Below are positions 5,705 to 16,190 of a DNA stretch of 21,396 nucleotides, one piece after another; positions within the stretch are counted from its first letter, which is position 1, and each line of letters starts with the position of its first letter. The stretch lies in IMG/VR virus record IMGVR_UViG_3300010354_000817, positions 1 through 21,396 of that record. One strand, 5' to 3'. Both the position numbers and the translations under genes were made by a program. This DNA is from a virus. Under the pieces are notes generated by a model. The model ran no database searches. It had not been told where the DNA came from and saw only the letters and a list, made by a program, of their open reading frames with translations.

Positions 5705-6043
5705 ATGGCCTCAGGGGATAGAGTAGAAAAAAGATTAATAGGACCAGTAGCCCTGACTTCCTCTAATGCTGCCGTAGGGTCTGCAGTTGGTGCAGGTAAA
5801 ACTTGGGTTATAAAACAACTTATATTTTGTAATACTGATGGCTCAGATAGACTTGTTTATTTAGCAGTGGGAAGTGCCGCAACACCATCTTATAGGTTTG
5901 CTTCCGGAATGCCCATAGCCGCAAACGATACTGTAGTTTTAGATACTGCAATGGTCTTAGAGGCCACTGAACAGTTATATGGTTATGCAGACTATGCCTC
6001 GGTTATAACTGTTATGGCGTTGGGATGGGAGAAGACCAACTAA
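5705..6043 (+). CDS. Small beta-sandwich tail accessory protein, copy 1
   Basis: A 112-residue protein with an alternating strand pattern and no enzyme motif. The order KRLIGPVALTSSNA, WVIKQLIFCNTDGSDR, a Gly and Ser loop, MPIAANDTVVLDTAMVLEATEQL and a final VITVMALGWEK is shared with the protein at 8787, where the same blocks read KRLAGPSMLTAS, TIVKQIILTNTTASAK, MTLAANETMAFNCSMVM and MAVFGIEEA. The two are therefore paralogues kept apart by about 2.7 kb of fibre genes. Proteins of this shape are common next to phage adhesins and may cap or decorate the fibre. The gene overlaps the next by one base (TAATG). Confidence 0.65.
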   Translation: MASGDRVEKRLIGPVALTSSNAAVGSAVGAGKTWVIKQLIFCNTDGSDRLVYLAVGSAATPSYRFASGMPIAANDTVVLDTAMVLEATEQLYGYADYASVITVMALGWEKTN

Positions 6044-7065
6044 TGGGCATAACATCAGTGCTTGGTACATCAGCTTTATTACCTGCTGGCTTGGGGTTCC
6101 GCAATGTTTTAATTAATGGGGACTTTCGTATCAATCAACGCGCTTTTTCAAGCACTACGACTAACGGAGCTTATGGTTTTGATCGTTGGAGAATTGATGC
6201 TAGTGGTGGAACAACAACATATTCTGCTCAAACTTTTACTCTTGGCAACGCAATTTCTGGTCAAGAACCAACAAACTATGCAAGAGTTGTAACTACAGGT
6301 CAATCAAATACAAACGGCACATATAGTTTATTTAGACAGCCAATTGAAGATGTTCGAACTTTTGCTGGTCAAACAGTGACTGTTTCATTTTGGGCAAAAG
6401 CTAGTTCTGGAACACCAAAAGTTTCTATTGAACTTGAGCAAAACTTTGGAAGTGGCGGATCTGCTGGTGTTACTCAGTATGCGGGCCAAGTAACGCTTTC
6501 TACGTCATGGCAAAAGTTTACATTAACAACTATTGTTCCTTCTATTTCTGGCAAAACTATTGGTACAAACTCACACCTGCTTTTTACTTTTATTCTTTCT
6601 GGTGGACCCGATTGGAACACCCGTTCTAGTTCAATAGGAATTCAGTCAAATACTTTTGATTTTTGGGGTGTTCAACTTGAACAGAACTATCAAGCAACTC
6701 CATTCGAACAGCGCCCTTTTGCTGTTGAAGATTTTTTATGTAAACGCTATTATCAGCGTCTTACTTTTCCTGGAAGTAACTGGTTTGCAATAGGAATGGT
6801 ATACCCTACTAACAATGCTTACGCAACTATCCCACTGTCAGTCACATTGAGAAGCGCCCCAACATCTATAACCGTTTCAGGTACAACTTATGGATTAGAT
6901 GCAGGTGGAACTGGGCGAGGAGTAACTCTTGCAATGGGAAGTTCAACTACACAAATTCTTGGACTTAACGCAACTGGTGGATTTAACTTTACTAACGGCA
7001 ACGCTGTATTATTAGCTTTTTCTACAGCCCCAAATTATATTGAACTAAATGGAACAGAATTATGA
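6043..7065 (+). CDS. Tail fibre or receptor-binding protein with carbohydrate-binding-like domain
   Basis: A 340-residue protein. I place the start at the ATG at 6043, which overlaps the previous stop and has GGGAGAAG 8 bases upstream; an in-frame ATG at 6025 would overlap the neighbour by 19 bases. Residues 19-33 contain FRNVLINGDFRINQR, and later FDRWRI, TVSFWAKAS (about 117-125), VQLEQN...TPFEQRP (about 209-225) and LCKRYYQR (about 231-238). This set marks a large family of phage fibre proteins with a carbohydrate-binding beta-sandwich followed by a linker and a variable C-terminal domain. The last 100 residues are the variable part and probably form the tip. The stop overlaps the ATG of a 54-codon gene (ATGA), which may be its assembly partner. 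Confidence 0.8.
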   Translation: MGITSVLGTSALLPAGLGFRNVLINGDFRINQRAFSSTTTNGAYGFDRWRIDASGGTTTYSAQTFTLGNAISGQEPTNYARVVTTGQSNTNGTYSLFRQPIEDVRTFAGQTVTVSFWAKASSGTPKVSIELEQNFGSGGSAGVTQYAGQVTLSTSWQKFTLTTIVPSISGKTIGTNSHLLFTFILSGGPDWNTRSSSIGIQSNTFDFWGVQLEQNYQATPFEQRPFAVEDFLCKRYYQRLTFPGSNWFAIGMVYPTNNAYATIPLSVTLRSAPTSITVSGTTYGLDAGGTGRGVTLAMGSSTTQILGLNATGGFNFTNGNAVLLAFSTAPNYIELNGTEL

Positions 7066-7226
7066 TCTGGTATACATACAAAACCCTAAATGACGATAAA
7101 GAAATGGTCCTGTGTAAAATTGACAAAAACACGGTCATAAGCGGCATCGCTGAGTTTATGCCTGAGTATTTACAATGGCTTGCTGAAGGAAATGTTCCAG
7201 AGGAGTTTGATCCAAATGCCAATTAG
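7062..7226 (+). CDS. 54-residue tail-fibre-assembly-like protein
   Basis: A short gene whose ATG overlaps the stop of the receptor-binding protein (ATGA) and whose end overlaps the next fibre gene by 11 bases. The protein starts MIWYTYKTLND and ends with EYLQWLAEGNVPEEFDPNAN. The C-terminal 'YLxWLAEGNxPE' pattern is well known from the C-termini of phage tail-fibre assembly proteins and related small proteins encoded directly after fibre genes. At 54 residues it is shorter than the classic fibre chaperones, so it may be a minimal version or only the conserved tail. The exact fit between two genes with overlaps on both sides strongly supports it as real. Confidence 0.75.
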   Translation: MIWYTYKTLNDDKEMVLCKIDKNTVISGIAEFMPEYLQWLAEGNVPEEFDPNAN

Positions 7227-7935
7227 TAATCAATTATCTCCTTCTAGATATATTCAACCAGGAGTAGTAACTTCGACTACTCGTCCGACAAATCCATTTC
7301 AGGGTCAAGCAATTTATGAAACTGATACTAACAGAATGTATATATGGAGTGGTTCTGCCTGGGTTATACCTAATCAAACTACACAGAATTTAGATGGCTT
7401 GGAATTAGTTCGACCTACTAGCGTTACAAATGGTTCAATTAATTCTACTGGCTCAATTGCAGTAAACTCTTCAATAACCTCACTAACTGTAGTTGGCGCA
7501 TTTAGTTCGACATATGATAATTATAGGATTTTGTGGAGCGGTTCTACTATGACTTCATCAAGTGGCGATTCTCAACTTAACTTTCAGTTTGGTCCATCAA
7601 GTGTTTCAAATTACAACACAGCTTATTATAGTATTTTAATTTATTCTAATGGATCAACAAATTTAACAGCTAGTCAAAGTAATGCTGGACAGTTTTCTTG
7701 GATGGGTGGTGGTTCTACTGGAAGTGGATTATTTCAGATGGATCTTTATGGACCAAACCTAGCGGTTCACAGTAGGATGCAAAGTTCTGCCTACAATAGC
7801 TGGAATGATGTTTATTTTGGTGGAGTATCAGGAGTTCATAAGGCATCAAATCAATATACAGATTTCACCATTAACGTAACTGGTACTGGAACTATAAGTG
7901 GAGGAACTCTTTGTATCTATGGGTTTAGGAAATAA
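7216..7935 (+). CDS. Tail fibre protein, 'PGV-TSTTRP' N-terminus, version 1
   Basis: A 239-residue protein. The ATG at 7216 is chosen because GAGGAG lies about 10 bases upstream and because an in-frame ATG at 7180 lies deep within the 54-codon gene. Residues 12-50 contain YIQPGVVTSTTRP, then GQAIYETDTNRMYIWSGSAWV, an N-terminal module that recurs in the next gene and is common in short phage fibres. Residues about 80-239 form a beta-rich tip domain with YDNYRILWSGSTMT, LNFQFGPSSVSNY and a final LCIYGFRK. This matches a widespread class of small adhesin tips, often found beside assembly proteins. Receptor binding is inferred. Confidence 0.75.
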   Translation: MPISNQLSPSRYIQPGVVTSTTRPTNPFQGQAIYETDTNRMYIWSGSAWVIPNQTTQNLDGLELVRPTSVTNGSINSTGSIAVNSSITSLTVVGAFSSTYDNYRILWSGSTMTSSSGDSQLNFQFGPSSVSNYNTAYYSILIYSNGSTNLTASQSNAGQFSWMGGGSTGSGLFQMDLYGPNLAVHSRMQSSAYNSWNDVYFGGVSGVHKASNQYTDFTINVTGTGTISGGTLCIYGFRK

Positions 7936-7938
7936 CAT

Positions 7939-8535
7939 ATGAGTATATCTTCTAAAGCAGCAGGTTTTAAGCCAGGAGTATGTACAAGTACAACGCGACC
8001 ATCTGCACCTTATGAAGGGCAGATGATATACGAAACTGATACTGATAGAATTTTAGTGTATAACGGTTCATCTTGGGTCTTGGAAAAGAGCATAGGATCA
8101 TATTCAACAACAAACGTAACAACATATCCAAACTTTCTTGTATATCTATCAGGTGGCAATGGAGCGGCTACCAATGATACTTACATTGGATACAATAGTG
8201 CACTTTATGACGATACATCGTCTGTATCAAGTGGTGTTTTTACCGTTCCAGCAGGGCAAGCTGGTGTGTATATGTTTAATGCAGCAGCTAATTGTTACAA
8301 TATTGGAACAAGTGGTTATTTTAGAATAATGATAGTTACTTCTGGAAGTAGTGGTTTGGACATAAATGGTTCTCAAACCCCAGCACAAGGTTCAACAGAC
8401 GTCTTCTCTATTGCGTCGGCATTGGTAAAACTTGCTGTCGGAGATACAGTAAGGGTTAGGTGGAAAGTTCCAGCAACCGGAAACTATTCAGCTGGTATTA
8501 CTTATAACAACTTTTCAGGCTGCAGGATAGCCTAG
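7939..8535 (+). CDS. Tail fibre protein, 'PGV-TSTTRP' N-terminus with C1q-like tip
   Basis: A 198-residue protein starting 4 bases after the previous stop. Residues 10-50 (FKPGVCTSTTRPSAPYEGQMIYETD..., then VYNGSSWVLE) match the N-terminal module of the preceding protein, so the two probably attach at the same kind of site. Residues about 65-198 have the strand order of a C1q or TNF-like jelly roll: GVFTVPAGQAGVYMFNAAANC, FRIMIVTSG, SIASALVKLAVGDTVRVRW and a terminal FSGCRIA. That fold forms trimers and is a frequent phage tip domain for sugar or protein ligands. The fold call is by pattern and is moderate. An untranslated gap of 47 bases with promoter-like sequence follows. Confidence 0.75.
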   Translation: MSISSKAAGFKPGVCTSTTRPSAPYEGQMIYETDTDRILVYNGSSWVLEKSIGSYSTTNVTTYPNFLVYLSGGNGAATNDTYIGYNSALYDDTSSVSSGVFTVPAGQAGVYMFNAAANCYNIGTSGYFRIMIVTSGSSGLDINGSQTPAQGSTDVFSIASALVKLAVGDTVRVRWKVPATGNYSAGITYNNFSGCRIA

Positions 8536-8550
8536 ATTACACTAAAATAG

Positions 8551-8570
8551 ATTACTATTGTATATAAAAA
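8551..8570 (+). promoter_or_regulatory. Possible late promoter before gene 8583
   Basis: ATTACTATTG followed by TATATAAAAA forms an AT-rich promoter-like stretch in one of the few intergenic gaps. AGATTAC is directly repeated at 8534-8540 and 8549-8555. A ribosome binding site GGAG follows at 8572-8575. Support is by sequence resemblance only. Confidence 0.3.
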
Positions 8571-8582
8571 TGGAGTTTAAAA

Positions 8583-8786
8583 ATGGCCAGAAAAAGATTC
8601 GATACAGCACCAGAGTTTAAAATATACGAAGACTCTGTAGTATTTCAGCAAATAGCTGGATCTTCTTCTGCTATACTCGAAGTAAAAAATTCAAGCAGCT
8701 CTACTATTATGCAAATAAACTCTTCTGGAGAAATACTAGGTAGAGCTAGAGATACAGAGATTCGATTCTTTATGGAGGTCATTTAA
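8583..8786 (+). CDS. Short fibre-like protein of 67 residues
   Basis: A small gene with GGAG 8 bases upstream of its ATG and a stop that abuts the ATG of the next gene. The basic opening MARKRFDTAP leads into alternating strands (FKIYEDSVVFQQIAG, AILEVKNSSSSTIMQIN, SGEILG) and an acidic and aromatic end, RFFMEVI. The middle resembles the repeating strand unit of fibre shafts, where a short 'LEVKNSSG..MxIxSxGxIxG' pattern is common. It may be a very short fibre subunit or a remnant of a larger fibre. No separate function can be named. Confidence 0.6.
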   Translation: MARKRFDTAPEFKIYEDSVVFQQIAGSSSAILEVKNSSSSTIMQINSSGEILGRARDTEIRFFMEVI

Positions 8787-9140
8787 ATGGCAATTACGCA
8801 AAAACGTCTTGCTGGTCCAAGTATGTTAACGGCATCAACTGCTACATACTATACTGTTCCAAGCGGTACTACAACTATTGTTAAACAAATTATTTTAACA
8901 AACACAACAGCATCAGCTAAAACAGTAACAGTAAGATTATTGCCTTCTGGCGTTAATGAAACAGCTACTCCAAACTGGGTGGACATCATCAGTGCGATGA
9001 CTCTCGCTGCAAATGAGACAATGGCTTTTAACTGCTCTATGGTCATGAATTATACTGGTGGAGCTGGCGATCAAATTAAAGCATTAGCCAGTGCAGCTGG
9101 CGCTGTTAATATGGCAGTTTTTGGAATAGAAGAGGCTTAA
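8787..9140 (+). CDS. Small beta-sandwich tail accessory protein, copy 2
   Basis: A 117-residue protein directly abutting the previous gene. It is a clear paralogue of the protein at 5705: KRLAGPSMLTAS near the start, IVKQIILTNTTASAKTVTVRL in the middle, MTLAANETMAFNCSMVM later, and a hydrophobic terminal strand MAVFGIEEA. Copy 2 has a five-residue longer loop and different charge, so the duplication is old. Both copies stand beside adhesin genes, consistent with a small domain that trims or caps fibres. The DNA is a little less AT-rich than its neighbours. Confidence 0.65.
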   Translation: MAITQKRLAGPSMLTASTATYYTVPSGTTTIVKQIILTNTTASAKTVTVRLLPSGVNETATPNWVDIISAMTLAANETMAFNCSMVMNYTGGAGDQIKALASAAGAVNMAVFGIEEA

Positions 9141-9142
9141 TA

Positions 9143-9850
9143 ATGGCTGGCGTAGTCCGTTACGGTGCACCTAGTGCAATGCAATCATTTATTGATTCAC
9201 CTGACCCTGTTTATGGAACAGGTATGGACGGAGACGCTACATTAGATGGAACTACAACCGTATTAAGTATGGTCCCATCTTCTTCAGTTTATTCTATGAC
9301 AAGAGATATGTATTTTAATAATCTTACAATAAATGCTAACGTAAGATTAGCGCCTAATGGCTATAGAATTTTTGTTAAAAATGTATTAACATTAAATAGT
9401 GGATCAACAATAGGATTCACAACAGGGTATTCAACCGCTGGATCAATACAACAAGGTGGAGCAGCTACTACTGCTGTTACACACTCTTTAGGCGGTAGTG
9501 CCACAGGGTATTCAGCAACAGCCCCAACAGATGCTTTGGGTGGAACAAATTGGTGGAAAGTGCCACGTCAAGCTATTCTAGGATACTCAATTACTGCTTC
9601 TGGAGGACCAACATTTTTGAGAGGTGGTGCTGGTGGATCTGGACAAGATGGTGGTGGAATAGTTATTTTGGCGGCTAGGTACATATCTAGTCCAACCTCC
9701 GGAACTGCCTACATTAAAGCTCCAGCAACGGCACCTGCTGGTGGTGGAGTAATATTAATTGTATCTTCATCAGCTGGTCTTCCGTCGTCTATTTCTACAG
9801 ATGTCACTGGACAAAATGCCGGAACATATAATTATATGCAGTTGGTTTAA
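9143..9850 (+). CDS. Glycine-rich tail protein, short paralogue
   Basis: A 235-residue protein. Residues about 20-90 contain VYGTGMDGDATLDGTT, then TRDMYFNNLTI and YRIFVKNVLTLNSGSTIG, a beta-helix-like entry that the next gene repeats almost block for block. Residues about 155-205 are glycine-rich (FLRGGAGGSGQDGGGIVILAARYI, APAGGGVILIVSSS), which resembles polyglycine II segments known from some phage adhesins. The end is GTYNYMQLV. Without the next gene it would look like a plain small tail protein, but alignment by eye shows it is the uninterrupted form of the large histidine-rich protein. Function is likely adhesion or virion surface decoration. Confidence 0.7.
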   Translation: MAGVVRYGAPSAMQSFIDSPDPVYGTGMDGDATLDGTTTVLSMVPSSSVYSMTRDMYFNNLTINANVRLAPNGYRIFVKNVLTLNSGSTIGFTTGYSTAGSIQQGGAATTAVTHSLGGSATGYSATAPTDALGGTNWWKVPRQAILGYSITASGGPTFLRGGAGGSGQDGGGIVILAARYISSPTSGTAYIKAPATAPAGGGVILIVSSSAGLPSSISTDVTGQNAGTYNYMQLV

Positions 9851-9852
9851 TT

Positions 9853-11505
9853 ATGGCAGCAATAGAAAGAATTGGCGCAACACCAAATTATTATGATACT
9901 TCTCAAAGACAAAGAATAGGTAATGACTCTGTTTATGGCCCAGGGTCAGATGGCACTGTAACAATAAGCGGTACAATCACCTTAACTAGAGACATGTATT
10001 ATGATAACTTGACCATTCCTTTAGGAAATGTTCTTTTAACTAACGGTTTTAGAGTTTTTGTTAAGAATACTTTAACATTAAATGGAGTAATTGGAATTGG
10101 TTCTGTTTCTGGTAATTCAAACGGCAGTTCTAATGGTACGATTGGGGAATCAGCAAGCGTAATTTCTAATGGAACAGTTTCTGGTCAGTCAACATCTACA
10201 TCTATAACATATAGAGCTGGCGGAACAGGGGGCGGTTCTACAGCTGGCTCAAGTACTTCAATACCTACAAATATTTTATATGCGTTAGATATCGCAACAG
10301 GAGGTCTAGTAATAGATTCTACTGGAACAGTACAAAAAATAGCAGGTGGAGTAGCGGGAACTACAGGTAGTACAGGTACTACAACTCCAGCTTATACTAA
10401 TAATGATTCTTGGCCTGGAAAAGCTGGTGCATCAGGAAGTGCTGGAGGCGCAGGAAGTTCTCCAACGCACGCTAACGCAGCATATCCACAGGCTGGTGGT
10501 AGAGGTCAAACTGGTAACCCAGCCTCTCCAGGAACTGCTACGGGAGCTAATCCTGGCACTGGTGGAGCTGGTGGAGCTGGTGGAGCTGGCGGTGGAGTTG
10601 TCGTTATAGCTGCAAAAGTAATTGCTGGCACTGGCACTGTAATGAGCTTAGGTAGGAGTGGATCCTCTGGATCCGCAGGGTCGACAGGAACTGGTGGAAC
10701 TCAAGGTTCTAACGGCAATGCTGGTGCCGCTGGAGTGCAAGAAACTCATAATAACCCAGCATCCCATCATCACCATTCTAATCCAGCAACTCACCATGGA
10801 GCTTATCATACACACTATCCATTTCATACTGTCTGGAATGCTAACTATGGAGGCCTTCATCATGGTGCTGTTTCGCCACAAGTGCATCTTTTTCATAGAG
10901 CTTCAAGAATTCATGGCCACATAGTAGAAGGCACTGGGCATACTGGCTTTCCCCACCACGCCTTTGGTTATCATAATCCACATCACGATGGTCCTCATGG
11001 ACATGTCGCTCATGGATCACATGATCATGGTACTTACATTCATCACTATCCAGTAGCAGGTCATGCTGGACCACATCACTATCATCACCACCATGGTAAT
11101 TATGATGGCAGCTATCATTATGCAAATCTAACTGGAGGAAATGGTCCACATGGTGCTGTTTCACTTCATAACGAAAACCATTCAGCTCCAGCACACTCCC
11201 ATAGACCAGCAGCTCACCACAATAATCCAGATACCGCAACACACCATAATAATCCAGCTACGGTATATCCAGGAGGAACAGCTGGTGCCGGCGGAGTAAA
11301 TAACGGAACCAATACTGGAGCTGGAGCCCCAGCTGTAACAGGAGGGTCTGGTAAAAGAGGTGGTGCTGGTGGAGGTGGAGGTATTATATTGATAACAGAC
11401 ACTACACCATCAGGAATTTCATACGATGTGAGAAAAGGCTTAACCGAAGATTCAGATAACTATTCCGGATCTAATGGATACACTTATGTTATACTTAACG
11501 CATAA
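9853..11505 (+). CDS. Glycine- and histidine-rich tail protein, long paralogue
   Basis: A 550-residue protein that shares its ends with the preceding gene: VYGPGSDGTVTISGTITLTRDMYYDNLTI and FRVFVKNTLTLNGVIGIG near the start, GGGGIILITDTTPSG and a final YTYVILNA at the end. Between them lie a Gly, Ser and Thr rich part with a GGAGGAGGAGGG run (about 237-248), and then a segment (299-465) with 46 His in 167 residues, including HHHH, HYHHHH, HTH, HGH, HDH and HSH. Similar HxH motifs bind iron in the needle of the T4 long fibre, so metal binding is a natural inference, though this segment is far denser in His and is not clearly a beta needle. It directly precedes a cassette with two iron enzymes. 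Confidence 0.75.
   Translation: MAAIERIGATPNYYDTSQRQRIGNDSVYGPGSDGTVTISGTITLTRDMYYDNLTIPLGNVLLTNGFRVFVKNTLTLNGVIGIGSVSGNSNGSSNGTIGESASVISNGTVSGQSTSTSITYRAGGTGGGSTAGSSTSIPTNILYALDIATGGLVIDSTGTVQKIAGGVAGTTGSTGTTTPAYTNNDSWPGKAGASGSAGGAGSSPTHANAAYPQAGGRGQTGNPASPGTATGANPGTGGAGGAGGAGGGVVVIAAKVIAGTGTVMSLGRSGSSGSAGSTGTGGTQGSNGNAGAAGVQETHNNPASHHHHSNPATHHGAYHTHYPFHTVWNANYGGLHHGAVSPQVHLFHRASRIHGHIVEGTGHTGFPHHAFGYHNPHHDGPHGHVAHGSHDHGTYIHHYPVAGHAGPHHYHHHHGNYDGSYHYANLTGGNGPHGAVSLHNENHSAPAHSHRPAAHHNNPDTATHHNNPATVYPGGTAGAGGVNNGTNTGAGAPAVTGGSGKRGGAGGGGGIILITDTTPSGISYDVRKGLTEDSDNYSGSNGYTYVILNA
10561..10587 (+). repeat. Three perfect 9-bp tandem repeats
   Basis: GGTGGAGCT is present three times in a row with no mismatch, encoding Gly-Gly-Ala steps just before the histidine-rich segment. 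Copies can be gained or lost in frame, which could change the length of a glycine-rich spacer. Confidence 0.85.
10747..11247 (+). other. Histidine-rich segment of the tail protein
   Basis: Codons 299-465 of the long glycine-rich protein include 46 His. The borders are marked by related motifs: HNNPASHHHH and SNPATHH at the left, AAHHNNPD and THHNNPAT at the right. In between, tyrosine, glycine, proline and alanine are common and charged residues are scarce. Both CAT and CAC codons are used, so the segment is not the product of simple trinucleotide slippage. Confidence 0.85.
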
Positions 11506-11518
11506 ATAGGAGATTATA

Positions 11519-11758
11519 ATGGAATTTACAAGCATTACAAAAGAACAAAAAATAGCAAAAATGAATGACACCAAAATAAGAATGGAAATGGAACTTTATG
11601 ATAGAGTCCTAGAAGTAGGCCTCGATCCAGATAGTTTTGTTTTAGAAACATGCGAACTTCCAGATGATGTTGCGCTATCTTTTCCTTGGAAGAGAATTAT
11701 GGAAATTAGAGATGGTATGGCGCTTATTAAGACAAAGTTAGAGCAACTTCAGTCATAA
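11519..11758 (+). CDS. Unknown 79-residue helical protein
   Basis: A short gene with a good AGGAG about 6 bases before its ATG. The sequence opens MEFTSITKEQKIAKMNDTKIRMEMELYDRV and closes with MEIRDGMALIKTKLEQLQS. Both ends look strongly helical, with a short acidic loop ETCELPDD between. There is no Cys pair or HxD motif and no membrane segment. It follows the histidine-rich fibre gene, and its stop abuts the next ATG. A small helical protein right after a fibre could be an assembly helper, but I do not recognise the family. Confidence 0.6.
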   Translation: MEFTSITKEQKIAKMNDTKIRMEMELYDRVLEVGLDPDSFVLETCELPDDVALSFPWKRIMEIRDGMALIKTKLEQLQS

Positions 11759-12181
11759 ATGTCAAGAGTTCTGTATGTTCCGAATGAGTCTTTTATGACT
11801 CAAGATATATTGGATGAAGCAAGTAAATCAGCCATCCAAATCCAAATAGGTGACTCCATGCATACAGAGAATCTTGCTTTTGATAGAAATAAGATAAATA
11901 TAGTTAACATTGAAAAACAAGATAATTTTAATTATATAAAAAAAATAATAAAAAATTTTAATCAAAATATATCTTATAAAAGTGGAAAATATAATTTTAA
12001 TAAAACTATTAAATGTAAAATATATAAAGATAATTACCTTAATTATATTAATCCAAAAATATGTGAAAAAAATTTTGTATCATTTATATTTAAATGTGAA
12101 GAAGTAGGGAATTATCAATTTAATATTGAGTTTGAAGATTCAGTATTATTAAATGGAGATTTTGAAGTTTATGAATTGTAA
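11759..12181 (+). CDS. Unknown very AT-rich 140-residue protein
   Basis: The gene starts at the base after the previous stop and overlaps the following oxygenase gene by 11 bases. The N-terminus (MSRVLYVPNESFMTQDILDEAS) looks like an ordinary folded strand-helix start. The centre is dominated by Asn, Lys, Ile and Tyr, and the end (FIFKCEEVGNYQFNIEFED, then LNGDFEVYEL) looks like a beta-sandwich edge. Base composition is extreme: only 5 of 60 bases in 11941-12000 are G or C. No family is recognised. It could be a recently acquired gene or one under weak coding constraint; the tight joins to both neighbours argue it is translated. Confidence 0.5.
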   Translation: MSRVLYVPNESFMTQDILDEASKSAIQIQIGDSMHTENLAFDRNKINIVNIEKQDNFNYIKKIIKNFNQNISYKSGKYNFNKTIKCKIYKDNYLNYINPKICEKNFVSFIFKCEEVGNYQFNIEFEDSVLLNGDFEVYEL

Positions 12182-12743
12182 TGAACCAATTATTGGCGTT
12201 CACGTATATGACGATGTTTTTGATGCAACTAATTTTATTGCACAACTAGAAGAAGACTGCAAAGACGAATGGGGACCATTATCTTGGCATGAGTCAAGAG
12301 TTGGCGAAGGTTTTTATAGTGAATACAGATCATCTAGAGAATGTAGTCTTATTGAAATAATGAAACCTTATCCAAGAATTAAAATTAGTGAATACTTTTA
12401 CGACGATCTTTATGACAAAATATATCCGTGTCTTCAAAATTATATAATGTCATATTCACTGCCAAGAATAGCTCATGAGCCTTTTGTTGTTCTTAAATAT
12501 ATGAATGGTGGAAATTATAGAACTCACTCTGATTTTGGTCCAGATAATGGCAGAATGTTTAGCATGGTAGCGTTTCTGGATAATACAAGTACCGGTGGCA
12601 GTCTAGAGTTCCCTTACTTTGATCTTCAGGTTGAAGCAAAACCAAAAAGAGTTGTGGTTTTTCCAGCTAATTTTCCATATTCACATATAGCTCATTCAGT
12701 TGATGATGGCGTTAAATATTCTTTGGTATCTTGGTTTAAATAA
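12171..12743 (+). CDS. 2-oxoglutarate/Fe(II) oxygenase, copy 1
   Basis: A 190-residue protein of the prolyl-4-hydroxylase-like 2OG/Fe(II) dioxygenase family. The iron triad is visible: H119 and D121 in YRTHSDFG and H175 in HIAHSV, with K182 in GVKYSLVSWF in the place used to bind the 2OG carboxylate. Strands around VVLKYMNGGNY, FSMVAFLDN, GGSLEFPYFD and KRVVVFPANFPYSH complete the double-stranded beta helix core. Such enzymes hydroxylate a protein side chain or small molecule. I take the ATG at 12171; an in-frame ATG at 12153 adds six residues but lacks a binding site. The gene overlaps the unknown protein before it and lies in the block behind the fibre genes. The substrate is unknown; tail proteins made from the same transcript are candidates. 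Confidence 0.88.
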   Translation: MNCNEPIIGVHVYDDVFDATNFIAQLEEDCKDEWGPLSWHESRVGEGFYSEYRSSRECSLIEIMKPYPRIKISEYFYDDLYDKIYPCLQNYIMSYSLPRIAHEPFVVLKYMNGGNYRTHSDFGPDNGRMFSMVAFLDNTSTGGSLEFPYFDLQVEAKPKRVVVFPANFPYSHIAHSVDDGVKYSLVSWFK

Positions 12744-12749
12744 GGAGGG
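12742..12749 (+). promoter_or_regulatory. Ribosome binding site fixing the start of gene 12754
   Basis: AAGGAGGG lies 4 bases before the ATG at 12754 and overlaps the stop codon of the oxygenase gene. It settles the start against in-frame upstream ATGs at 12700-12708, which lie within the oxygenase coding region. Confidence 0.75.
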
Positions 12750-12753
12750 AATC

Positions 12754-12939
12754 ATGGAACCAGAAAATTTAGAATTAAATATAGACGAAGATAGTGAGAT
12801 AGCTCAGCCACTGTATCTTCTTTCTTGGGCTAAAAAAACAGTTGATAACAATACAACGCAAGGACTTTTTGCTGGATGTAGAGCATTTGATCAACTTGGA
12901 CTATGGATAAATCCTGCTATAATAGAAGAAGAAGAATAG
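12754..12939 (+). CDS. Small acidic protein of 61 residues
   Basis: A short gene with a strong binding site. The protein is acidic at both ends (MEPENLELNIDEDSEI and a final EEEE) and has one compact centre, PLYLLSWAKKTVDNN...GLFAGCRAFDQLGLW, which could form two short helices with a single Cys. I do not recognise the family. Acidic small proteins between enzyme genes may act as adaptors or carriers, but the Ser expected for an acyl or peptidyl carrier motif is not evident. Its constant spacing to both neighbours fits a cassette operon. Confidence 0.6.
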   Translation: MEPENLELNIDEDSEIAQPLYLLSWAKKTVDNNTTQGLFAGCRAFDQLGLWINPAIIEEEE

Positions 12940-12955
12940 TTAAAAGGAAAAAAAG

Positions 12956-13186
12956 ATGTTAGCCTATAATAAACAAAAGCACTTAGATCATTTAAAGGAA
13001 AGAATATCTTTAATGTCTATTTCTGCTGGATTAGATTATGATTATATAGATATTAATAACTACAAGGAAATAAGAGATAACCTTAATTTAATGTTGGTAC
13101 CACCAGAGTTGTTTAGAAAAAAAGTTGAGTTAAGAGCAATTATGTATAGTTACTTTTTAGCAAATGGAGAAGTTAACAATGGCTGA
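12956..13186 (+). CDS. Unknown 76-residue helical protein
   Basis: The ATG follows an A-rich AAAAGG leader and the gene overlaps the next by 8 bases. The protein is mostly helical: YNKQKHLDHLKERISLMS, then a Tyr and Asp loop (YDYIDINNY) and a second helix pair (EIRDNLNLML, FRKKVELRAIMYSYFL). The final codons contain the GGAGAAG that serves the next gene. No catalytic motif is visible. It could be a structural helper of the neighbouring enzymes. No family is recognised. Confidence 0.55.
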   Translation: MLAYNKQKHLDHLKERISLMSISAGLDYDYIDINNYKEIRDNLNLMLVPPELFRKKVELRAIMYSYFLANGEVNNG

Positions 13187-13910
13187 CAATACTAGTACAA
13201 ATGAAGCAACATCATTAGTCGCAACAAGAATAGGTTTAGAAGTTAGTAAATGGACTGGACTTTGTGACTCTAGTGATCCATTGTTTAAGTCCGATCAAGA
13301 TTTATTAAATTTTTGTGCATCAGCATATTCAGAATGGCAAAGTTTAAATTATAGTGATAGAATTCTTCAAGGTGGAGATGAGTTTTATTCAACCGCATTA
13401 ATGGGTACTGAAGGTGGAGAAGCATTTCTTCCAGTAATAAAATTAGGTTTATTAATAAATCAATTATTTTTCCGTTTAGTAAAACCGCAAAACAGTTTAG
13501 TAGTTCATGGTCCTGGAATTATAGCTCAAGCCAGTTTATTCTCAGAGAATGTGTATGTTCCGCACAATATCCATGTTTACTTGGCTGAAAAATATTTAGA
13601 CACATCTGAACTTAATAATGTTAGTATGATTGACTATTCTGATATTTACAATCAAACCAATAACTATGACTTTGTATGCATAATTATGGGGGCAGCTTCA
13701 GATAGAGAAATGTTAAAAGCTATAATGGATAGTATTAATCCTGGTGGAATTCTAGTTTTATCTGGATCTTCTAATGGTGGAGAGCTCTATATGAATTTAG
13801 AACAATCATACGCTTACCAAATTCATCAAGAGATAATAAATAGAGGAGATTTTAGTTTGTATAATATACCAAACTTCATGGCGCAAACAATTTGTATAAA
13901 GAATGGTTAA
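13179..13910 (+). CDS. Methyltransferase-like Rossmann-fold protein
   Basis: A 243-residue protein. The ATG at 13179 is chosen over one at 13164 because GGAGAAG lies 5 bases upstream. The C-terminal two thirds look like a class I SAM-dependent methyltransferase: a strand and loop SLVVHGPGI (106-114) at motif I, YDFVCII (163-169) for motif IV and INPGGILVLS (186-195) for motif V. Motif I is degenerate (HGPGI in place of the usual GxGxG), so SAM binding is uncertain, and an inactive or altered form is possible. The first 100 residues are an unfamiliar helical cap that may shape the substrate pocket. Placed immediately before the halogenase, it could methylate the same target. Function is inferred. 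Confidence 0.6.
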   Translation: MADNTSTNEATSLVATRIGLEVSKWTGLCDSSDPLFKSDQDLLNFCASAYSEWQSLNYSDRILQGGDEFYSTALMGTEGGEAFLPVIKLGLLINQLFFRLVKPQNSLVVHGPGIIAQASLFSENVYVPHNIHVYLAEKYLDTSELNNVSMIDYSDIYNQTNNYDFVCIIMGAASDREMLKAIMDSINPGGILVLSGSSNGGELYMNLEQSYAYQIHQEIINRGDFSLYNIPNFMAQTICIKNG

Positions 13911-13918
13911 CTATACTT

Positions 13919-15400
13919 ATGAATAAAAAAATATCTATAGGAATTATTGGTTCCGGCACGGCGGGTCTATTGTCTGCCATTATGTTTAGAAATGCATTTC
14001 CACATTCTGACATTACAGTAATTTCGTCATCTGACATAGGAATAATCGGTGTTGGAGAAGGCTCGACCGAGCATTGGAAAGAATTTATGAAGCTATGCGA
14101 TATACCTCTTTTTGACATGTTGTCAAAAACTGGAGCAACTCATAAATACGGTATTAGATTTGAAAATTGGTCAAAGAAATTTCCAGATTATTTTCACTCG
14201 GTTTCAGGAGATGAAACACTATATGCGTATGGTTTATATCCAACCTATTCAGGTTTTGTCGAACAAGAGAAAACATTAACATCGCAAACAGCTTCAGTAG
14301 GTTTGGTTCAGGATAAATTAAGAAGACAATCAACACATGATGCAGTAAACCAGTTTCACTTTGACACATTTAAATTAAACAGATACTTTTCTGAATTATG
14401 CTTTAATAGATCGATAAGAATGATTGATGGAGAAGTAGAAGATATAAATATAGAGTCGGAATTTGGCACTATAGAGTCTGTTACATTAAAAGATGGTAGT
14501 ACATTTAGTGCTGATTTTTGGGTAGATGCCACTGGGTTTAAAAAGGCTATTATTAGTAAAGTTTCAGACGTAGAGTGGAACTCTTTTTCCGAATACCTAT
14601 GCGTAGATTCTGCTATAGCATTTCCATCAGAAGCAGATGAAAATGGTAAGATAAAACCATACACAAGAGCAAGAGCTATGTCCTCTGGCTGGATGTGGGA
14701 AATTCCGACTCAAGAAAGAAGAGGAAATGGTTATGTTTTTAGTTCTAAGTTTATTAGTCTAGAAGAAGCAATTGCAGAAGCATCAAAAGCAGTAGGCTTT
14801 GATGTAAAGCCAGCAAAAGTTTTCAAATTTGATCCTGGACATTTAAAAAAACCATGGGTTAAAAATTGCGCAGCAATTGGACTTTCCGCATCTTTTGTGG
14901 AGCCACTAGAAGCCACTTCTATTGGAAGTACAATACAGCAAATTAAATGGTTGATTCCATCAGTTGCAAATTATAAAAAAACCAATCAGCACATGCAAGA
15001 GTTTTATAATAAACAATTTAATCTAATGATGGATAACATTTTAAGCATGATAAGATTACATTATATGACTGATAGAGACGACACTCCATTTTGGAAGCAT
15101 GCAGCTTCAAGACCAGTTAATCAGACTTTGCAGGAGTACTTAAATCTTTGGTCAGAAAGAACACCATCTAGATATGATATACCTTCTAATAATGGCGAAA
15201 TGTTTCTTTCTTCTCACATGATACATGTTGCTCAAGGTCAAAATCTTCTAAATGCCAAAGACGCAGGTTTATTTATAGATAACATGTGTCTTAGGGATCA
15301 AGTGAAAAATGATATGTCAGAAAAGCGATTAAGTAGAAATAATCACGAATTAGTAGATCACAAAGAAGCATTGATGGAATTATATGAAATTTGGGAATAG
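13919..15400 (+). CDS. Flavin-dependent halogenase (tryptophan halogenase family)
   Basis: A 493-residue protein of the usual family length with the full motif set. GSGTAG (11-16) is the FAD-binding loop. GVGEGSTEHW (44-53) matches the family's second FAD motif. K76 in HKYGIRFENW fits the catalytic Lys that activates hypohalous acid (K79 in PrnA). WMWEIP (258-263) is the WxWxIP signature that separates halogenases from monooxygenases. E331 in FVEPLEATSI fits the catalytic Glu and halide region (E346 to G349 in PrnA). The enzyme would need reduced flavin from a host reductase. Phage members exist: VirX1 from a cyanophage halogenates, preferring iodide, on varied substrates. The ATG at 13919 puts the FAD motif at the usual distance; a TTG at 13892 is an alternative. 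The substrate may be a free metabolite or a virion residue. Confidence 0.92.
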   Translation: MNKKISIGIIGSGTAGLLSAIMFRNAFPHSDITVISSSDIGIIGVGEGSTEHWKEFMKLCDIPLFDMLSKTGATHKYGIRFENWSKKFPDYFHSVSGDETLYAYGLYPTYSGFVEQEKTLTSQTASVGLVQDKLRRQSTHDAVNQFHFDTFKLNRYFSELCFNRSIRMIDGEVEDINIESEFGTIESVTLKDGSTFSADFWVDATGFKKAIISKVSDVEWNSFSEYLCVDSAIAFPSEADENGKIKPYTRARAMSSGWMWEIPTQERRGNGYVFSSKFISLEEAIAEASKAVGFDVKPAKVFKFDPGHLKKPWVKNCAAIGLSASFVEPLEATSIGSTIQQIKWLIPSVANYKKTNQHMQEFYNKQFNLMMDNILSMIRLHYMTDRDDTPFWKHAASRPVNQTLQEYLNLWSERTPSRYDIPSNNGEMFLSSHMIHVAQGQNLLNAKDAGLFIDNMCLRDQVKNDMSEKRLSRNNHELVDHKEALMELYEIWE

Positions 15401-16190
15401 TAAAAACTACAAAGACCTAAAAGTAAAACCAGGAGAAGTATTATTTATACCTTCTGACAATAGGCATTTAGAAATGCCACCCACAGTTAACACATCTTCA
15501 AATCCACCTGGTTGGTTTAGAAAGATGGGGAAGTTTCCGGGATCAGTAAGAAGATGTGCTGGAACAATAGATTATCTAGCTGCAGGAGTAAGCCTTCCTG
15601 CTTGGTCTAACTTTAAATTCAAGAACAAGGGCTCAGGATCTATATGGGAAGTCGCTACAGATCAATTGGATTTACCTGGCAATTATCCAATAACAGTTCA
15701 ATCTTTTGATTTTGCACAAACTGGAAAATGTCCAATGTCTGAAATAAGAGATCAAGAAGTGCAAGAAGGATGTTATCCAAAACTTGTAAATCCATGGAGA
15801 ATTAAAACAGCTCCAGGTTGGTCAACTCTTATTCTTCCAAATTTATTTGAACCAAATAAAAACTGGACTGTAGTCCCAGCAATAGTCCATACTGATTTTT
15901 ATCATACATTAAATGTTGTTTTGAATATCCATTCAAACGAAGATTTTGCCATACATTATGGAGATCCATTAGTTCAATTAATACCGTTTAAAAGAGACTC
16001 TGATTTCAATAAAGTTTTATTTGAAGATGAAAAAATGTTTAAATATGTTTCTTCTAGGGGTTTTGGTTCAGGCAGTTTAATTCCAACTCCTGGAGAAAGT
16101 ACAGCAAGACCATATAGAATGGAAAGAATTAAAGTAGATAAACAGATTGAAGAAGAGAAATCAAAAAGAAAATGGAAAAAAAACAAATAG
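15384..16190 (+). CDS. Conserved-looking unknown protein between halogenase and oxygenase
   Basis: A 268-residue protein overlapping the halogenase by 17 bases and the next oxygenase by 19 bases, so translation is probably coupled. It begins with KVKPGEVLFIPSDNRH and continues with a Trp and Gly-rich central part. The clearest block is NPWRIKTAPGWSTLILPNLF, followed by AIVHTDFYHTLNVVLNIHS (about 168-186) and DPLVQLIPFKRD. That combination, with 'GWS.L..PN', 'VHTDFYH' and a final 'Q.IPFKR', resembles a family of unassigned proteins in marine phages that I know only as hypothetical. The strand-rich centre resembles a trimeric barrel or cupin. HTD..H may look like an iron site, but spacing to a third ligand is unclear. 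The C-terminus is very basic (EEEKSKRKWKKNK). Confidence 0.6.
   Translation: MKFGNSKNYKDLKVKPGEVLFIPSDNRHLEMPPTVNTSSNPPGWFRKMGKFPGSVRRCAGTIDYLAAGVSLPAWSNFKFKNKGSGSIWEVATDQLDLPGNYPITVQSFDFAQTGKCPMSEIRDQEVQEGCYPKLVNPWRIKTAPGWSTLILPNLFEPNKNWTVVPAIVHTDFYHTLNVVLNIHSNEDFAIHYGDPLVQLIPFKRDSDFNKVLFEDEKMFKYVSSRGFGSGSLIPTPGESTARPYRMERIKVDKQIEEEKSKRKWKKNK

Follow-up and report, generated by a model that had tools for sequence, protein, structure and literature searches.

We propose that the histidine-rich segment encoded at positions 10747-11247 of a viral DNA from IMG/VR (record IMGVR_UViG_3300010354_000817, analyzed over positions 1-21,396 and called the window below) is a variable loop domain, exposed on a virion adhesin, and that it is a substrate of the halogenase and oxygenases encoded nearby. 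This reading is tentative, with a probability of roughly 45%. Across a family of phage proteins, the segment is closely linked to a flavin-dependent halogenase, and this linkage suggests chemical modification of an attachment protein rather than simple iron loading. The parts of the protein are as follows.

9853..11505, + strand: glycine-rich scaffold protein with the histidine-rich insert; open frame of 550 aa
9949..10110, + strand: beta-rich N-terminal block TRDMYYDNLT...VFVKNTLTLNG, residues 33-86; strands with mostly high pLDDT
10597..10647, + strand: left flank of the insert, residues 249-265, VVVIAAKVIAGTGTVMS region; confident strands (AlphaFold)
10747..11247, + strand: histidine-rich insert, residues 299-465; 46 of 167 residues are His; the inserts of relatives share this position
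11362..11502, + strand: right flank, residues 504-550; glycine-rich run and C-terminal strands, GGGGGIILITD...

Translation confirmed what the preliminary description had reported of this segment, namely 46 histidines in 167 residues (28%, in frame with 9853-11505), the motifs HHHH and HYHHHH, and glycine-rich runs on either side. The rest of the protein contains a single other histidine, and the histidine codons of the gene are CAT (31) and CAC (16). The AlphaFold model of the scaffold protein is confident in part: the flanking strands are well modeled, with pLDDT of 70-86 across residues 500-550. For the insert, AlphaFold predicted no fold, and no fibre-like or beta-fibre fold in particular, with either of two alignments (the second from another subclade), and pLDDT was mostly below 40, in the first model mostly at about 30 or lower. 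A PDB fold search with the model gave no matches, a BFVD search gave weak matches at most, to glycine-rich or collagen-like viral proteins, and the collagen triple helix profile PF01391 scored 15 bits, below its gathering cut-off of 27.2. In the family alignment, the left flank is strongly conserved and the GGG of the right flank is invariant; the N-terminal block is also common to histidine-poor relatives.

The segment had been placed in a ‘tail protein’. None of the profile libraries assigns the product of 9853-11505 to the tail, and what stands of that label is that this is probably a virion appendage protein. Capsid genes lie on one side of the gene and the tail sheath on the other, with tail-fibre PHROGs around it, and from this context the product is most likely a phage surface protein, a tail adhesin, with the insert probably exposed. 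Polyglycine-II sandwich adhesins of the S16 gp38 type combine glycine-rich blocks with hypervariable inserted loops. The window protein resembles them in its glycine-rich blocks and variable inserted loop, but differs in having no sequence or fold match in the PDB. An extra N-terminal domain is found in six histidine-rich proteins (L005, at 7413-9506, L054, L056, L058, L059 and L137); in L005 this domain has a weak Lcl_C match (30.1 bits against a cut-off of 34.9) and the others look alike by sequence, which is a further hint of an adhesin. The upstream neighbors in L035 (2106-3881) and L041 (1327-3579) have strong collagen repeats, and one of them carries an Mtd_N domain (major tropism determinant N-terminus). 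Window positions 5705-8535 hold four tail-fibre-type genes that are shared with L005 and absent from that spot in L001. Because L001 is otherwise very close (its histidine-rich protein is 98% identical), this difference probably reflects a recent gene swap.

Relatives of the 550-aa protein were found at 98% (L001), 81% (L002) and, in many cases, 35-50% identity. The search for the same segment in other phages, as the preliminary description had proposed, consisted of IMG/VR scans followed by ORF extraction, which gave 24 distinct histidine-rich proteins in the scaffold alignment, and of a halogenase-seeded search that added 16, a few of its loci being on contigs already met in the first scan. 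The total is thus about 40 distinct environmental phage proteins, and the insert occupies an identical position in them. They share the order TRDMYYDNLT...VFVKNTLTLNG beta block, glycine-rich runs, GGGVVVIAAKxIxGTGTVMS strand block, insert, GGGGGIIxxTD and, last, a short C-terminal stretch. Among the 24 members from the scans, inserts are 116-220 aa long with 12-36% His, compared with at most 1.3% elsewhere in these proteins; under a wider definition, applied to 37 members, the insert is about 46-313 aa long with 13-39% His. Histidine is rare outside the insert in most members, and L151, L155 and L157 have more of it beyond the main run. The inserts have few charged residues and are rich in Gly, Asn and Pro. 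Repeats are scarce in the window gene; L035, L036, L039 and L040 contain short tandem units such as VNGGHHH and TNPHHH. Remoter scaffold members, a few of them from bacterial MAGs, have no histidine insert.

The extreme histidine-rich segment is real: 36 of the 43 aligned histidines are kept in L002, 16 of 37 conserved histidine codons differ synonymously between the two, and over the segment dS is saturated while amino-acid identity is 75%. These comparisons indicate that the histidines of the insert are held by purifying selection. We therefore ruled out a chance or artefactual low-complexity ORF, because the histidines are under selection and the family is broad.

The genes around the histidine-rich gene in the window are as follows.

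8787..9140, + strand: conserved neighbor of 117 aa, PHROG 20100/1276, function not assigned
9143..9850, + strand: short scaffold paralogue without the His insert, 235 aa; E 3.6e-10, 42% to P0001
11759..12181, + strand: conserved neighbor of 140 aa, function not assigned; synteny
12153..12743, + strand: 2OG-Fe(II) oxygenase, PF13640; profile match, HxD...H intact
13164..13910, + strand: 248-aa protein, methyltransferase-like by eye, no Pfam match
13892..15400, + strand: flavin-dependent (tryptophan-type) halogenase, PF04820; E 4e-100, catalytic Lys/Glu invariant
15384..16190, + strand: dUTPase-like protein of 268 aa; weak PF00692
16172..16885, + strand: second 2OG-Fe(II) oxygenase, PF13640; profile match

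Much of this order recurs in relatives, as [117-119 aa]-[short paralogue]-[His-rich]-[~135 aa]-[2OG-Fe(II) oxygenase]-[248 or ~355 aa]-[halogenase], and the short paralogue adjoins the long scaffold gene at nearly all loci. The window halogenase, whose PDB homologues include PrnA, RebH and VirX1, is apparently intact as judged from its alignment, in which K85 and E337 are invariant; it carries WMWEIP, and many family members have WxWxIP.

Among all neighbors, the halogenase tracks histidine-richness most closely. A PF04820 search of whole contigs within one scaffold family found a halogenase in 21 of 21 histidine-rich and 0 of 26 histidine-poor members, where the absences are not proof, as the contigs are fragments (several of 70-130 kb). 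The halogenase lies within about 4.5 kb of the histidine-rich gene. We also ran the test in reverse, taking 79 loci from the halogenase alignment and counting a member within 7 kb as histidine-rich if it had 14 or more His per 100 aa. Where the halogenase was at least 44% identical to that of the window, such a member was present at 18 of 22 loci; of the remaining four, L149 has a shorter histidine-rich insert, the contigs of L138 and L153 end near the halogenase, and L139 is a true exception. A histidine-rich member is also present in L154-L157 (halogenase 41-43% identical), and no histidine-rich neighbor was found for the more distant halogenases among the 79 loci. In L156 and L157 the histidine-rich gene is downstream of the halogenase rather than upstream; in other words, the linkage outlasts rearrangement, because the order is reversed and yet the genes remain linked.

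Scaffold trees calculated with the insert left out place histidine-richness at one or two state changes. The association between histidine-richness and the halogenase is thus, on these trees, deep and persistent, yet made up of few independent events, and since histidine-richness has one or two origins, the perfect correlation may reflect common descent. These few gains are also consistent with a different explanation, in which the halogenase and oxygenases make or tailor a small molecule (a host metabolite, an antibiotic-like compound or a surface glycan), their genes being cargo of the kind that gathers near tail genes, and the histidine loop has a separate role. Published readings of phage halogenases are of this type, namely secondary metabolite or capsule decoration (PMC7824862), antibiotic protection, termed speculative (PMC2984593), and auxiliary metabolism (PMC10452541), and they do not include virion proteins. 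Many phage halogenases are indeed housed in metabolic or LPS regions: those of P-SSM2, S-SSM7, S-PM2 and S-MbCM6 lie amid metabolic or LPS genes, and the pattern described here is therefore not universal for phage halogenases. In overall identity, the window enzyme (37% to that of P-SSM2, 26-28% to that of Syn10) is nearer the P-SSM2 class. However, chance co-location does not predict that the halogenase should be missing from histidine-poor members with similar oxygenase neighbors, nor that the linkage should survive the changed order in L156 and L157 or recur with a second glycine-rich tip family. We therefore regard the small-molecule explanation as possible but on the unlikely side.

This second family occurs in isolated cyanophages. 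Of 50,697 phage records, 12, representing six distinct phages, contain a Syn10-type glycine-rich, tip-like protein (C-terminus ...NFSHNHQSHSAPG...HYHN...), and all 12 carry the halogenase; VirX1 (PDB 6QGM) is the Syn10 gene of that cluster. Like the window, the Syn10 locus has small, structural-type, glycine-rich proteins bearing histidines immediately upstream of the halogenase, as well as a dUTPase-like neighbor homologous to window 15384-16190; homologues of the latter lie beside the halogenase in L118, L123, L127 and L129. The differences are that these are T4-like cyanophages, that a search found no homology between their tip proteins and the window protein, that their histidine content is only modest (about 6-14 His in each neighbor protein, and zero in that of S-SRM01), and that their halogenases are only 26-28% identical to the window enzyme. 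The co-occurrence is a partly independent replicate of the linkage. In S-SRM01, a product named ‘gp37-gp38 adhesin tip complex’ adjoins the halogenase. In S-CREM1 (L129), the halogenase is soon followed by a run of 2OG-Fe(II) oxygenase genes (eight annotated) and a JmjC gene, at 10628-16118, and upstream there is a gene for a collagen-like protein. The dUTPase-like protein of the window has distant relatives in haloarchaeal tailed viruses and cyanophages.

The preliminary description had allowed that the placement beside two iron-dependent oxygenases may be chance. Both window oxygenases exceed the PF13640 cut-off of 27 (39.3 and 38.3 bits), and the HxD...H motif was read in the near-identical copies of L001. 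The placement is not a matter of chance, because the oxygenase is syntenic with the histidine-rich gene in most relatives, and it points to protein modification and not to iron loading. The tie of the insert to the oxygenases is less strict than that to the halogenase, the first oxygenase being missing from L035, L036, L039, L040 and L041. Two oxygenases, and no halogenase, also lie downstream of six close relatives (L070, L072, L077, L081, L083 and L095) that carry at the unchanged position a Tyr/Asn/Gly/Pro insert (15-20% Tyr, 20-23% Asn) with Tyr/Asn-rich repeats such as NYSYGYSYPGN and PTNYGSN; L081 also has an FkbM-type methyltransferase.

Under the modified-adhesin reading, the insert would be a fast-evolving exposed loop domain set between two beta-strand/polyglycine blocks of a glycine-rich surface protein. 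The halogenase would act on it post-translationally, attaching halogens to imidazole (or tyrosine) side chains, and the 2OG-Fe(II) oxygenases would perhaps hydroxylate its Pro and Asn residues, giving a halogenated surface of spaced-out histidines that would adhere to the host envelope. Because the inserts of L035, L039 and L040 (35-39% His) contain one or two Tyr and no Trp, histidine is their sole abundant target. Tyrosine is less likely as the main target, because the Tyr-rich sister group has no halogenase. More speculatively, the natural substrate of this viral halogenase class, possibly including VirX1, may be a virion surface protein with halogenated histidines, so that phages would halogenate and hydroxylate the histidine-rich tip of their own adhesin. 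In the literature found, no paper names a natural substrate of viral halogenases, nor a flavin halogenase acting on histidine. VirX1 has an accessible, large active site and a broad substrate scope (PMC8407142). The flavin brominase SrpI modifies a ribosomal peptide via a disordered region (PMC10858898); the likeness to SrpI and its proteusin substrates lies in a flavin halogenase working on a disordered region of a ribosomally made polypeptide, and the differences in the substrate and in the leader peptide, none of which is seen in the window system. The action of another halogenase depends on its target residues having first been hydroxylated (PMC12615548), and a viral collagen lysyl hydroxylase has been described from mimivirus (PMC5802723 and other papers).

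The preliminary description had also pointed to the iron-binding HxH pairs of T4 fibre tips and suggested a metal-loaded or pH-sensitive surface. On the T4 gp37 fibre, HxH pairs of the trimer coordinate iron, and the idea has been extended to other phages (PMC11705849). Binding of metal or protons by so many histidines is chemically plausible, and on these grounds some metal binding by the segment is likely. HxH motifs are indeed present in the window insert, but at 10, against 12.4 expected from composition, they are not enriched. When residues were shuffled within each of 37 family inserts, HxH was somewhat below expectation (258 against 307), HxxH and HxxxH were clearly depleted, and histidines were spaced more evenly than chance; the z-values of this test are inflated by relatedness, that for HxH being -1.6 without the repeat-rich members. 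Judged from sequence, this spacing is unlike that of dedicated chelating pairs, and T4-like HxH iron sites were rejected because the shuffles gave no HxH enrichment. The two proteins are alike in carrying histidines on a phage receptor-binding protein; the window insert differs in its lack of HxH enrichment and of detectable homology and in its glycine-rich scaffold, and PDB sequences revealed no relation to gp37. A T4-like, iron-loaded fibre that uses host iron uptake (‘Ferrojan horse’) would draw on the plentiful histidines and the gp37 precedent, but with these results and no predicted beta-fibre in the segment we consider it very improbable, and the analogy is not supported.

Another possibility is that the insert is an unmodified metal-binding, pH-responsive or adhesive ‘sticker’, which would act through Zn, Cu or Ni bridging or imidazole protonation, as in Nereis jaw proteins. 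Its composition (13-39% His, few charges, Gly/Asn/Pro-rich) and the even spacing are compatible with this, and Zn is bound by Gly/His-rich jaw proteins, the jaw coat itself being described as a halogenated, cross-linked protein with Zn (PMC13120676). Nvjp-1 of the Nereis jaw shares the Gly- and His-rich composition and the halogenated coat chemistry; it is an unrelated animal protein, and the parallel is one of composition and chemistry only. However, an unmodified sticker leaves the tight halogenase linkage unexplained, and the compact chelating spacings HxxH and HxxxH are depleted, so that we judge it improbable.

We also considered the hosts. WhiB, an actinobacterial regulator, was present in 10 of 15 and in 13 of 22 of the contigs searched, among histidine-rich and histidine-poor members alike; L001 (98.9 kb), to which the window is most closely related, gave no WhiB match. 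Therefore, by gene content, the hosts of this phage group are mostly Actinobacteria, which need not hold for the window's own phage. Host phylum as a hidden cause of the split in histidine and halogenase was excluded, as WhiB occurs in both groups, and a marine cyanophage origin was rejected, as 30 contigs contained no psbA. A T4 gp23 search of the contigs was negative, and control sequences gave no match either.

No phage is known to us to halogenate a protein of its own virion, and the present one, if the reading is true, would be the first to do so. The linkage to a histidine-rich surface domain under selection provides a concrete candidate substrate for viral halogenases. A vague idea about iron gives way to a specific prediction for these uncultured, mostly actinobacterial phages.
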